Assembly (NCBI RefSeq): GCF_014269225.2
Contig: NZ_CP077097.1
Location: 3,359,001-3,423,000, forward strand
Source: Pseudomonas anuradhapurensis
Lineage (GTDB): Bacteria; Pseudomonadota; Gammaproteobacteria; Pseudomonadales; Pseudomonadaceae
DNA: 64,000 nucleotides
Reading direction: 5' to 3'
This document shows positions 8,097 to 12,321 of this stretch, piece by piece; position 1 is the first letter of the stretch; each line of letters starts with the position of its first letter. A program made the position numbers and the translations under genes. The notes beneath the pieces were generated by a model. The model ran no database searches. It was not told the DNA's origin and saw only the letters and a list, made by a program, of their open reading frames with translations.

Positions 8097-9287
8097 TCAA
8101 CCCTCAGCTATGCGGTCAGTTTCCGCCATGCATGCAAGCAGTAGCCACCCGCACAGACTGGCGCCCAGGAAAAAAAGCCCCAGGCTCATCGGCAGCGCGC
8201 TTTCGACACCGGCCACAAGACTGCCAGCCAAACCACCACCTGCGAACAGCAATGTCGTATTGAGCGACGCTGCCGCACCGGCCTGGTGTGGGTAACGCGC
8301 CAAGGCTTGGGTCGTCGCAGCAGGACGCACCAGTGTTGTCCCCGTCGTGCAGATGATCATCGGTAGAACAAGGCCTGTCACCGTCAGTCCCGCTAGCTGC
8401 TCCCAAACCAAAAGTGTGATGCCCCCGGCAGCTATGAGCAGGAATCCCGTCTTGATCTGAACCTGCGGAGTTACTCGATTGTTCAAATAGGTCGCGGCTG
8501 CTCCGCCAGCGATATATGCAAGCCCATAGGCGATAAATACCACCGAGAATTGATATGGCGTCAGCCCCAGGCTGTCCATCAACGCCAATGGCGCGACAAC
8601 GATGAAGGAAAAATGGCAGGCAAAAGCGAGACTGGACAGCAGGGAGTGCGCAAGATAGGTCGTATCACGCAGCATGACCCAGTAGCTGCGCATGCCCGAC
8701 CTACGGCCTCTCAATGCAGGCGTGTCCTGCAGCAATGCATATGACAGGGATGAAACGATCACGGCTATGAAAGCGAATACCGTAAAGCTGCCCTTCCAGC
8801 CAAAGGATTGTTGGAGAAAAGCGCCTGCGACCGGTGACAACGAGATGAATAGCCCACTTGCGCTGGTCAGCAGGATACGCATGGCATTGCGCTGTCTACC
8901 ACTGTACAGATCTTGCACGAGCGCCTGGCCCAGCACGAAACTCCCGCAGCCCAGGGCCTGCAGCAAACGGAACGCCATGAACGTCTCATAGCGGGTTGAA
9001 AGTACACAACCCACTGCGCCTGCAATGGACACTGCCAACCCAGCGAGCAACAACCGCTTGCGCCCCGTGCCATCCGACAATGGCCCGATCACGATTTGCG
9101 CCACGGCGACACCAAACGCAAAGAAGCTCACCGAGTAGGCTATCTGTTGCGGCTCGACGTGAAACTCGTCTGCGAGCGCCGGGAATGATGGCAGGATCAC
9201 ATCCAGAGGGAATACGCCTAACAGACACAACAGGATCAACAGGGCCGAGCACAGAAAACTATTGAGCGATTCGGAGGGCCGATTCAC
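8097..9287 (-). CDS. Bcr/CflA-type MFS drug/metabolite exporter
   Basis: A 396-residue major facilitator protein with about 12 membrane helices. The MFS loop motif reads GPLSDGTGRKRLLLAGL near residue 70, and the first helix has the LDVILPSFPALADEF pattern of the Bcr/CflA efflux subfamily. Translation starts at a GTG that overlaps the stop of the diiron-oxygenase gene (GTGA), so it belongs to the same minus-strand unit as the SagB-like and AurF-like genes and the small peptide. In that context it most likely exports, or gives immunity to, the product of the cluster. The frame is intact, unlike the two enzyme genes before it. Confidence 0.85.
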   Translation of the reverse strand: MNRPSESLNSFLCSALLILLCLLGVFPLDVILPSFPALADEFHVEPQQIAYSVSFFAFGVAVAQIVIGPLSDGTGRKRLLLAGLAVSIAGAVGCVLSTRYETFMAFRLLQALGCGSFVLGQALVQDLYSGRQRNAMRILLTSASGLFISLSPVAGAFLQQSFGWKGSFTVFAFIAVIVSSLSYALLQDTPALRGRRSGMRSYWVMLRDTTYLAHSLLSSLAFACHFSFIVVAPLALMDSLGLTPYQFSVVFIAYGLAYIAGGAAATYLNNRVTPQVQIKTGFLLIAAGGITLLVWEQLAGLTVTGLVLPMIICTTGTTLVRPAATTQALARYPHQAGAAASLNTTLLFAGGGLAGSLVAGVESALPMSLGLFFLGASLCGWLLLACMAETDRIAEG

Positions 9288-10233
9288 GCTACTAACCCCG
9301 CTTTTCTGAATTGCAATAAATAGCCCTCATCATCCAGCAAATCAGTCCGTTCAATCGCTCGAAGCGTGGGCCCAGAAACTTCAAGCATCCGAGCAGACCA
9401 ACTCGACTCCAAATAAACGACAACTTCATTTCCGATTACTGGCCGACCTTTAAAAAGCGTCTGCAAGAAAGAAATATCAGGCCTACAGAATACCGCGAGC
9501 ACCTCAAGCAGTACTTGAACTACATAATTCCTCTCGCACCTGGAGATTTTCCGCCACAGCTGAACAAAGCATTCAGAAAAGAAAACCGCATGACGCCCTT
9601 CATCATGTAGGTGATCAATAAACATATGTGCCACAGGATCTACAAGTGAGTCGCGAGACAACTTTAACAGCTCGCAAGCAATCAAAGCCTCTGAGACAAA
9701 TACAATACAAAATCGGGTTAGACACCTAAACCCTAAGGACTTTTCTCTAAAATACGATCCAACCCCACAATGCGAGTAGATTTAGCTCGCACCAGATCAA
9801 AATGCTTTGACACTTGATCTGCAATATCCCGTGAAAATAAAGCGTGATAGCCTTCATCAGCATACAACTTCAAAGCAATACGCCGCTCTCCATCCTCAAA
9901 GTACTTCTTTAAACCACCAATTACAATGCACTGCACAGCTTCGTTGACATGCGCTATCTCTAGCTCAGTCGTGTAATCCATAAAACACACTAAATGATAC
10001 ACATGCAAAATCCTCAACTCTTGCTTTGAAAGAGCTCTTACTGAGTCATGAGCTAGCACAGGACTGAGCGCAGCAGGAAACCACAAGCCAGGATCACATC
10101 GAGCAAAGTCCGCCTCTGAAAATTTATACACATAAGGCCGCGAGCGCACAGCGCTAGTCAGGTGCCAGCCTCTAAACATAGTAATACTACGATCAGTTCC
10201 TTTCCTCATGCACACACCCCATTGTAAACTCAC
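9284..10233 (-). pseudogene. AurF-like diiron N-oxygenase, split by a frameshift
   Basis: Two adjacent frames together encode one AurF-family (p-aminobenzoate N-oxygenase type) protein of about 315 residues. The upstream half (to 9733) has TTELEIAHVNEAV and YADEGYHALF. The downstream half (9685 to 9284) has SEALIACELL and HMFIDHLHDEGRHAVFF. These are the two Glu/ExxH metal-binding halves of the family. Adding one A to the AAAA run near 9745 joins them (EKKSLGFRCLTRF then IVFVSEALI). The break is thus a one-base loss in a homopolymer, either real decay or a sequencing error. The start could be the GTG at 10233, overlapping the SagB-like stop, or the ATG at 10209. Each half alone lacks metal ligands. 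Confidence 0.75.
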
Positions 10234-11272
10234 TTAAGTAGAGATTTTAGGCAGTTCGGGATAGCGGAACCATCGCTATAACCACAGCCAACAAAAAAAA
10301 TCACCTGCTCATCAGAATTTTCAAGATGTAGCAATGATTCAATGGAGGATTCATTCAACGCACCAGTTAGCCATGTATTCATCCCACGGGCAGTTGCCGC
10401 TAGTTGGAACGTCTGCGCCACATGACCAACCTCTATCAATGCCATCCGATAGGCGCGGGAATGCTCGTACTTCCACCACAATTTATCGAATCTGGATGTT
10501 AGAAACAGCCCCACTGGTATATCGTTCGCGAAATGCTGTCCTGAAGGCAAGGCGCCGAGTTTCGGTACCAATTGACTACGCCAATGCACCTGATGAAGAT
10601 GAGGGTCGTAATAATATATTCCTGGCTCTAAGCTTCGACATTAGCCACATATACATAACCTTCTGTAGCATTTAAGCCACCTGCTGATGGACTGCTACGC
10701 CGCTTGGAGAACTGCTCCACTCCTCCTTGTTGATTAGAAAGTTCCCGCCTTTCAACAAAGCCCAGTGTACGATGCAAGATCTTCCCTAGCTCAGCTATTG
10801 AAATCGGTAACTGATGGAAAGCTCTTGCTGTTGCGCGGCGTGCAAGCACCTCATCGAATTCATCAGCAGCGCAAAAACCAGGTAACTGGATACCACCCCC
10901 AACGCCCCGAAAGCTCTCAACAGGAGAAGTTTTACCCAATACATCATTACAGTGTTCTAAGTATTGAACAGCCCACTCATGCTCGCTGGCAGGCTGGTTT
11001 TCCGGAACTATATCTTTAGTACCAATATGAAAAATCCTAGACAGCACATCCCAACCCCAATCACTCTCGCCCCTGGGAGAGTCCAACATAACCTTGCAAC
11101 GTTTAAAATCCTCAACCACAGTATCACTTGAATCACTGCAACCCTGATCATAAATTAGTGAAATCAACCGATGAGCATGCTCCGCCGACAACTGATACTG
11201 CTTGTGCCTTTTGAAATCCCAGCAAATCAGAGCATTATCTACGGCAATAAAAAAGCAGTCGCTACTTATCAT
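10230..11272 (-). pseudogene. SagB-like FMN-dependent (nitroreductase-fold) dehydrogenase, split by a frameshift
   Basis: The gene starts at an ATG at 11272 behind a very strong AAAGGAGGGGG site. The N-terminal 110 residues resemble the region that precedes the flavin domain in SagB proteins. Next come RRATARAFHQLPISIAELG and PSAGGLNATEGYVYVANVE, where the frame hits a stop at 10628. Another frame continues directly with LEPGIYYYDPHLHQVHWRSQ, the WKYEHSRAYRMALIEVGHVA motif and a C-terminal IFFVGCG to 10230. Restoring one base in GAAGCTTAG near 10633 rejoins it into about 345 residues. SagB enzymes oxidise azolines in azole-containing peptides, but no YcaO cyclodehydratase gene is nearby, so the substrate here is unknown. 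Confidence 0.75.
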
Positions 11273-11288
11273 ACCCCCTCCTTTAGCC

Positions 11289-11313
11289 AAAGCGCAGGCC
11301 GGCACTGCGCTTT
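11289..11313 (-). terminator. Hairpin between the peptide gene and the SagB-like gene
   Basis: AAAGCGCAG (11289-11297) and CTGCGCTTT (11305-11313) form a perfect 9-bp stem with a 7-nt loop, 19 nt after the peptide stop and before the ribosome site of the SagB-like gene. There is no U-tract on the minus strand, so partial attenuation or mRNA stabilisation, as common after RiPP precursor genes, is more likely than full termination. Confidence 0.55.
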
Positions 11314-11332
11314 AGCACTTATCGGCTAAGGC

Positions 11333-11401
11333 TTATTTAGCCGTTTTAACCAGAAGAGCCAAATTTGCCAATTTTGCGGATTCCATCTTGATAGCTTTCA
11401 T
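11333..11401 (-). CDS. Predicted 22-residue peptide, possible RiPP precursor
   Basis: An ATG at 11401 follows GGGGA with 7-nt spacing and opens a 22-residue peptide that begins MKAIKMESAK, continues with LANLALLV and ends KTAK, then TAA. It is lysine-rich (five Lys) with a leucine/alanine core, one Ser, one Thr and no Cys. It is the first gene of a minus-strand unit with SagB-like and AurF-like enzymes and an exporter, and a hairpin separates it from them. That order is typical of ribosomally made, modified peptides. Residue composition does not fit an azole peptide; oxidation of lysine amines by the AurF-like enzyme is one speculation. The same frame is open further upstream, but there it has no ribosome site and looks non-coding. 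Confidence 0.5.
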   Translation of the reverse strand: MKAIKMESAKLANLALLVKTAK

Positions 11402-11471: not shown

Positions 11472-11913
11472 GCCGAAGCAGGCAGCGAAACTTCCGAAGG
11501 CATTGTAGGATTTTTTACCGGCACACTTGCGGACGACGCGTCTAATTCGCCTGCAGAGTATCTGGAACGCGCCAAACAAGCTATTAGGCCGCAGCTTCGC
11601 TCGGCTCATCTCAGCTGATAAAAACAATTTAGTCTCAGGTCTAGACCAGGAAATCAGATTTATTGAGGACCAAAGGACTGGAAGTTCCTGGAATGGCAGG
11701 ACCGTCGCACGCGTAGGCGATCGGATCAGTTACAGTGCCGTCATCGAAACAGATGCAGCCTGCACAATCATCGAGGGAGCGAGACACAACCTGCCACGGA
11801 CGGATCTTGGTCGAGGGAGAGCCGGGTTGGCTCATTGATTGAAAGGCCGACAGCGACATATCAGTATTACAAATACTGACACTGTCGCCGGGCAAGCCTT
11901 TCCAGAAAACCGC
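11472..11913. other. Intergenic stretch without a convincing gene; contains a perfect palindrome
   Basis: No open frame here has a good ribosome site and a recognisable product. A 72-codon minus-strand frame starting at 11859 lacks a Shine-Dalgarno. Directly before it, at 11861-11879, TCAGTATT and AATACTGA form perfect 8-bp inverted arms with a 3-nt spacer, the shape of a MarR/TetR-type operator. The base composition is mixed and the stretch looks like a junction between transferred and resident DNA. Confidence 0.4.
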
Positions 11914-12094
11914 TTAGCCTTCCAGTCCCTTCTTCAGCGCCGCCAGGCCATCTTCCTAGATGCCGGCTAACAGCGCAGTTGCTTCAGCATCGCTGATACC
12001 CATCGGCACGAACGAACCAGACCACTCCCCCGAGACCCGCTACCTTCAGCCATGTTGCCCAGTGGGGCGGCACCGAAGCCCAGCGGGTTGGTGA
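11914..12094 (-). pseudogene. Remnant of a degraded gene, aldo/keto-reductase-like N-terminus
   Basis: On the minus strand a short stretch encodes NPLGFGAAPLGNM, the N-terminal signature of aldo/keto reductases of the D-threo-aldose/pyridoxal dehydrogenase type. A different frame close behind reads GISDAEATALLAGI, an in-frame TAG, then EDGLAALKKGLEG and a stop at 11914. The core of the enzyme is absent, so this seems to be an internally deleted, frameshifted leftover. The family call for the first part is tentative and I do not recognise the C-terminal part. Confidence 0.3.
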
Positions 12095-12321
12095 TAAGGG
12101 GGTATGAGGTTCCTGTGCGTTTTCCTGATGGGAGAGTCGGTTGTGAACTCCAGTGGCTGCAATGCTATGCGCCACCCACCAAGACCGTCCAAGTCATATT
12201 TCGAACGACTTGAGACCTTTTATGCGACACCGATCAATCGTACTTCGTAATCCCACCATGGCATCTTTGCGATAGCGATCAGCGCCTTGTTGCCTTCAAC
12301 AGTCTGTCGTGCGGACTGCTC

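Follow-up and report, generated by a model that had tools for sequence, protein, structure and literature searches.

A recurrent Pseudomonas cassette of a tiny peptide, a SagB-type dehydrogenase and an AurF-type oxygenase as a candidate YcaO-free pathway, with a frame-broken copy in Pseudomonas anuradhapurensis

Thiazole/oxazole-modified microcin (TOMM) and linear azol(in)e-containing peptide (LAP) systems, such as those of microcin B17, streptolysin S, and the cyanobactins, have a flavin dehydrogenase of the SagB/McbC/ThcOx type beside a short peptide gene, and ThcOx, BmdC, and McbC oxidize azolines in peptides or in carrier-bound intermediates. The same pairing is seen in a cassette on the minus strand of a 64,000-nucleotide stretch of the Pseudomonas anuradhapurensis genome (contig NZ_CP077097.1, positions 3,359,001 to 3,423,000; this whole stretch is called the window below, and coordinates are counted from its first nucleotide). 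As an earlier note made from the sequence alone had described, the cassette is comprised of genes for a 22-residue peptide, a SagB-like dehydrogenase, an AurF-like diiron oxygenase, and an exporter of the major facilitator superfamily (MFS), in this order. Unlike TOMM/LAP clusters, it contains no YcaO cyclodehydratase gene, a point on which the note was right, its peptide has no conserved Cys, Ser, or Thr, and it includes an AurF-type oxygenase and an MFS pump; a standard TOMM cluster was rejected because YcaO is missing from the cassette. With a probability of roughly 55%, in our estimate, the cassette represents a YcaO-free pathway in which a tiny ribosomal peptide is turned into a small metabolite, the locus in the window being an inactivated member.

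Several other described systems resemble the cassette in part. The arylamine N-oxygenases AurF and CmlI share their fold (template modeling (TM) score of about 0.7) and a seven-ligand pattern with the cassette oxygenase, which differs in being only 15–19% identical to them in structural alignments and in having as its partner a tiny peptide without an aromatic amine. The pathways of pyrroloquinoline quinone (PQQ), mycofactocin, 3-thiaglutamate, and the ammosamides likewise combine a very short precursor with oxidizing enzymes and are not known to have a peptide-type exporter; however, neither a radical S-adenosylmethionine (SAM) enzyme nor a peptide aminoacyl-tRNA ligase (PEARL) recurs in the cassette, and the Glu-Tyr pair of PqqA is absent from its peptides. 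In Pseudomonas sp. Os17, the OS3 cluster has a small protein beside a SagB-type gene, but its content (an 85-residue protein, an acetyltransferase, a peptidase-like protein, and a 650-residue SagB protein), is unlike that of the cassette (PMC7726476). The gvg clusters of Pseudomonas have a small open reading frame (ORF) beside a carbamoyltransferase gene, and SagB is not named in the main text of the paper that describes them (PMC8064604). On these grounds, and as far as the available parts of both sources go, the OS3 and gvg clusters were rejected as the same system. The earlier note did not recognize the combination of SagB, AurF, and a tiny peptide, and neither a small-molecule pathway encoded by a SagB-AurF pair nor a description of the cassette was found in the open-access literature, most subscription papers lying outside the scope of the search.

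The cassette is widespread in the genus. The SagB gene of the window is split by a frameshift, and its second piece was searched against 398 Pseudomonas genomes, among them that of the window; a match at E ≤ 0.001 was obtained in 154. Loci were fetched for all matches listed at E ≤ 2.9e-20 and for seven weaker ones among the matches listed, and 127 loci, again with the window's, were examined. SagB is followed by AurF and MFS genes on the same strand in 104 of them (103 of the 398 genomes). By a stop-free-frame measure, all three large frames are open in 91 of these 104 AurF-containing loci and not in the remaining 13; the same gene order with intact frames in other Pseudomonas genomes, a check set beforehand, was thus readily found. 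The window's locus is among the 13 (its MFS gene is, in addition, truncated because the stretch fetched there is short), and SagB is the most frequently broken gene among the AurF-containing loci. Gene order was viewed around 119 loci, 39 from this sample and 80 from a set of named genomes; the latter are the best 80 of 187 matching stretches, all from Pseudomonas, and overlap the genus sample, so the two sets are not independent. In most loci of the Pseudomonas fluorescens type, the cassette lies between an RlmI-like gene and a dihydroxy-acid dehydratase-like gene (named by eye), whereas the flanking genes are different in the Pseudomonas putida group and others. Since the neighbors differ between groups, the recurrent unit consists of the peptide, SagB, AurF, and MFS genes.

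With regard to wider distribution, 20 of 76 near relatives match the second SagB piece at E 1e-20, all of them in the same genus. More remote relatives of SagB were encountered in 20 non-Pseudomonas genomes (369 were sampled in Gammaproteobacteria), and a quick look at 10 loci in other Gammaproteobacteria revealed no similar tiny peptide beside SagB. The 101 AurF relatives obtained in a word-limited search come from Pseudomonas, except for one compost metagenome and one Janthinobacterium metagenome-assembled genome, and those with names are called diiron oxygenase, aminobenzoate oxygenase, p-aminobenzoate N-oxygenase AurF, or hypothetical protein. A locus of another gammaproteobacterium (L272; 5.3–8.9 kb, on the match strand) has a gene for a 49-residue peptide, followed by two SagB-like proteins and more genes, and looks like another peptide-modification cluster.

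The putative precursor gene of the window, MKAIKMESAKLANLALLVKTAK, is intact and lies at 11333–11401 on the minus strand; its translation of 22 residues is Lys-rich and without Cys, as had been described, and has a homologous peptide in relatives. In the genus sample, a peptide with the start M-x-x-I/V-x-L/M-E/Q is found shortly 5′ of SagB in 103 of the 104 AurF-containing loci, and the sole locus without it (L056) has a badly damaged SagB gene. A small frame like KLANLALLVKTAK is therefore present upstream of sagB at the same place in relatives, where its absence would have spoken against a precursor, and a chance ORF was rejected on account of this recurrence. Across cassettes, the peptide is 21 to 26 residues long, and its gene is separated from SagB mostly by 57–85 nt in relatives and by 60 nt in the window. 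The Lys-rich character was rejected as the key feature: it holds for the window, but what is conserved among 60 distinct peptides is an MKxIxLE-like start and Asn13. These 60 have no consistent Cys, Ser, or Thr position, Tyr is rare in them, and their end is varied in length and sequence and usually basic.

Among 98 distinct peptide genes from AurF-containing loci, Asn13 is encoded by AAC in 86 and by AAT in 12, Ala12 occurs in 97 with all four GCN codons in use (one gene has Glu), and Glu7 also occurs in 97 (one has Gln). Codon-position entropy is 1.12 bits at position 3, 0.78 at position 1, and 0.57 at position 2, so that the third position is the most variable and the second the least, a pattern that, together with synonymous codon change, we read as codon-level signs of a protein. 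Purifying selection, named earlier as support for a precursor, was detected but is only moderate on average. Over 105 distinct peptide sequences, with AurF-containing and AurF-less loci pooled and the window copy left out, the ratio of nonsynonymous to synonymous polymorphism (pN/pS) in codons 2–18 was 0.51 when pooled, 0.45 in the 23-residue forms, and 0.54 in close pairs; in codons 19–23 of the 23-residue forms it was 0.35 for all pairs and 0.57 for close pairs.

Residue 13 of the peptide goes with the presence of AurF. All 103 peptides from AurF-containing loci of the genus sample carry Asn13. Eight SagB-MFS loci are without AurF, and the peptide is present in seven of them, with Ala (3), Gly (3), or His (1) and never Asn at residue 13; in the eighth, L066, SagB is damaged and the peptide absent. 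In the named set, Asn13 was found in 77 of 77 loci with AurF and His13 in both loci without it, one further locus being cut by a contig end. In a SagB tree of 107 full-length, stop-free rows (L121 was taken in from the named set; broken or short rows, L041, L059, and L060 were left out), the AurF-less members are almost all placed in a single clade. Within this clade, the AurF-containing pair L048/L068 (LESKALANW) sits beside L213, L222, and L226 (LESKALAAF, LESKELAAF), a placement which suggests that here, too, residue 13 changes along with AurF. At the level of sequence, linkage and the association between Asn13 and AurF support the view that the enzymes would modify this peptide. SagB-MFS cassettes without AurF were recorded at L062, L064, L069, L121, L147, L213, L222, L226, and L231, and the peptide centers in such cassettes are His-rich (HHHA, GHHA), GFHV, or LAAF.

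The SagB-type flavin mononucleotide (FMN) dehydrogenase gene of the window (10230–11272, minus strand) has its frameshift near 10628. Both of its pieces, 10628–11269 and 10230–10628, match TIGR04511 and TIGR03605, and the second also matches PF00881. The TIGR03605 cut-off of 78.4 bits is exceeded by an intact relative, L032 (103.7 bits), whereas the window pieces taken singly fall below it (73.3 and 26.7 bits). TIGR04511 (putative peptide maturation dehydrogenase) is matched by all 18 SagB relatives of one set at E ≤ 0.001, and its cut-off of 240 bits is not reached by L032 (146.4 bits). A Lys-Tyr pair of the kind that is catalytic in McbC is invariant in all 32 aligned SagB sequences (32 of the 80 named loci), and a SagB model has its best structural match in ThcOx, followed by BmdC, while McbC ranks lower. 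The AurF/CmlI-type diiron oxygenase gene (9284–10209, minus strand) carries a frameshift near 9733; against the PF11583 cut-off of 29.6 bits, its N-terminal piece scores 20.3, below, and its C-terminal piece 38.3, above. Seven residues are the same throughout an alignment of 48 relatives (of 64 listed AurF references): Glu84, Glu119, His122, Glu174, His200, Glu204, and His207, numbered as in the first sequence. We take their spacing to be that of the AurF diiron ligand set. A model of an intact relative has a predicted local distance difference test (pLDDT) score of 93.5, and its best matches in the PDB are CmlI (TM 0.71/0.75) and AurF (0.74/0.73). The exporter gene (8097–9287, minus strand) is an open frame that scores 205.9 bits with TIGR00710 (Bcr/CflA efflux transporter), above the cut-off of 200.9, and also matches PF07690.

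Additional enzymes were sought both within the cassette and elsewhere in the genome. YcaO was looked for in 20 genomes that bear an AurF-containing cassette, one of them the window's; it was matched elsewhere in 18 and not at all in two (G198 and G348), both with open cassettes, and 17 of the 18 matches lie in frames longer than 700 codons, which are taken to be a housekeeping form. Lant_dehydr_N, of the PEARL type, was matched in none of the 20 cassette-bearing genomes, and the same search was also blank in all 14 control genomes. No recurrent protease, radical SAM, or PEARL gene was seen in the cassette in the gene order around the 119 loci.

In the wide sense, a pathway of ribosomally synthesized and post-translationally modified peptides (RiPPs) is marked by a conserved precursor-like gene linked to modifying enzymes, as is found here in 103 of the 104 AurF-containing loci. 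The cassette appears to be a RiPP-like pathway whose combination of enzyme pair and tiny precursor appears undescribed, and through chemistry that is likewise new to the literature it probably yields a small compound derived from the peptide. Linkage and covariation, both read from sequence, point to a precursor role for the peptide, and the chemistry and product that we infer are as follows. The conserved start (MKxIxLE) would serve as the recognition part bound by the enzymes; the SagB-type FMN enzyme, judging from its family, would dehydrogenate a residue in the peptide center, and the AurF/CmlI-type diiron enzyme, as the association with Asn13 suggests, would oxygenate the peptide at or beside that residue. 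A cellular protease encoded elsewhere may then release a small product, the presumed cargo of the Bcr/CflA pump. A more specific proposal, in which a new class of pathway joins an AurF-type oxygenase acting at Asn13 of a 21–26-residue precursor to a YcaO-independent SagB and gives a small oxidized Asn-derived product exported by the MFS protein, is tentative, and we put it at less than even odds.

Several observations weigh against a precursor pathway of this kind. On the SagB tree, AurF presence needs only about two changes among cassettes with this MFS, and the link between Asn13 and AurF may therefore reflect shared descent, the independent pairs in the tree being too few to test it. Sister cassettes of SagB and a carbamoyltransferase bear Asn (SNDAY, SNNAY) without AurF. 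In addition, pN/pS is moderate and no higher in the last five codons, so that the contrast between a conserved center and a variable end is not borne out; because it does not separate the two, it is the invariant sites that carry the case for the center. The peptides gave no match in Pfam or NCBIfam, and confidence in the SagB model is intermediate (pLDDT 77). As to their composition, sister cassettes L049, L051, L057, and L067 comprise the short SNDAY/SNNAY peptide, SagB, the carbamoyltransferase, and a different MFS protein, and L052–L054 additionally carry a methyltransferase/tetratricopeptide repeat (TPR) protein; the peptides of sister cassettes likewise begin MKxIxLE/Q-like.

The main rival to the precursor reading is that the peptide is a regulatory leader, on which ribosome stalling would control a hairpin and hence the operon, while the enzymes and the pump serve an unrelated small molecule. 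Most relatives do have a short conserved ORF with a ribosome site, a hairpin, and then SagB, the pump belongs to the Bcr/CflA family, and some drug-efflux genes have leader peptides. The hairpin of the window, which is G+C-rich with the loop TGCCGGC, lies between the peptide and SagB genes at 11286–11316 (minus strand). A hairpin is predicted at this place in most relatives (71% of 107 distinct spacers have z < −2, with a mean of −2.7), the loop of the window hairpin, GTGCCGGC, occurs in 74 of the 107, and the stems vary in sequence between groups; the window's own spacer has a z of only −1.04. A consensus fold of ten spacers did not recover the hairpin (poor alignment, 3 pairs), so its conservation rests on single folds. 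In the twelve folds viewed, however, the hairpin stands mostly 5′ of the SagB ribosome site and does not cover it. The peptide is moreover conserved at the protein level with synonymous variation, its start is alike in sister cassettes that have different enzymes, and its residue 13 shifts with AurF presence, all of which argue against a leader, and we regard this explanation as unlikely.

It is also conceivable that the peptide acts as a carrier or scaffold, to which an enzyme encoded elsewhere adds an amino acid that is then modified, as in pearlins. The pearlin pathways share the logic of a short peptide, oxidizing enzymes, and an exporter, but the C-terminus of the cassette peptide is variable and the Lant_dehydr_N search, blank in the controls as well, gave no match in the cassette-bearing genomes; this explanation seems improbable. 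If the peptide were instead a microprotein that binds or stabilizes SagB, with the enzymes acting on a free amino acid or amine, its company with SagB whether AurF is present or not and the near invariance of Glu7 (97/98) would be expected, but the variation of residue 13 with AurF presence would not. To our knowledge, SagB-family enzymes of known reaction all use peptide or carrier-bound substrates, and we hold a microprotein to be highly improbable.

In the window itself, the peptide-modification cluster proposed in the earlier note is present in that all four genes are there, but its SagB and AurF genes each carry one frameshift, so that open frames remain only for the peptide and the exporter; the copy should therefore not work as sequenced. 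The window SagB retains 68 of the 70 columns invariant in 32 relatives, and the window AurF 32 of the 33 invariant in 48 relatives, so the damage looks recent or else due to sequencing error. The copy has probably been inactivated recently, and the frameshifts may be sequencing errors. No second SagB copy was found in this genome with the second SagB piece. Other details of the layout described earlier also bear up: a GGGGA ribosome-site-like stretch lies 5′ of the peptide gene, the hairpin follows it, and a strong ribosome site precedes SagB. The region is indeed AT-richer, with a GC fraction of 0.42–0.49 in 500-base segments starting at 9251–11251, compared with 0.53–0.74 in the others of the first 25 kb, and this low GC spans the peptide, SagB, and AurF genes. 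The packing by GTGA overlaps is clear only at the AurF/MFS junction, where the MFS start lies over the AurF stop. For AurF, homologues favor the ATG at 10209, about 20 nt past SagB, over the overlapping GTG at 10233. Short stretches with broken frames, one of them NPLGFGAAPLGNM, lie upstream of the cassette at 11910–12100 (minus strand) and, by eye, look like what remains of another gene.

Roughly one in four of the Pseudomonas genomes sampled (103/398, with 104 loci) bears the AurF-containing cassette, a compact system of one tiny peptide, two enzymes, and one pump. If the precursor reading is true, SagB enzymes would reach beyond azole formation and AurF-type oxygenases would come to ribosomal peptides. 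The cassette occurs naturally both with AurF and without it, which opens the substrate residue to a direct test.

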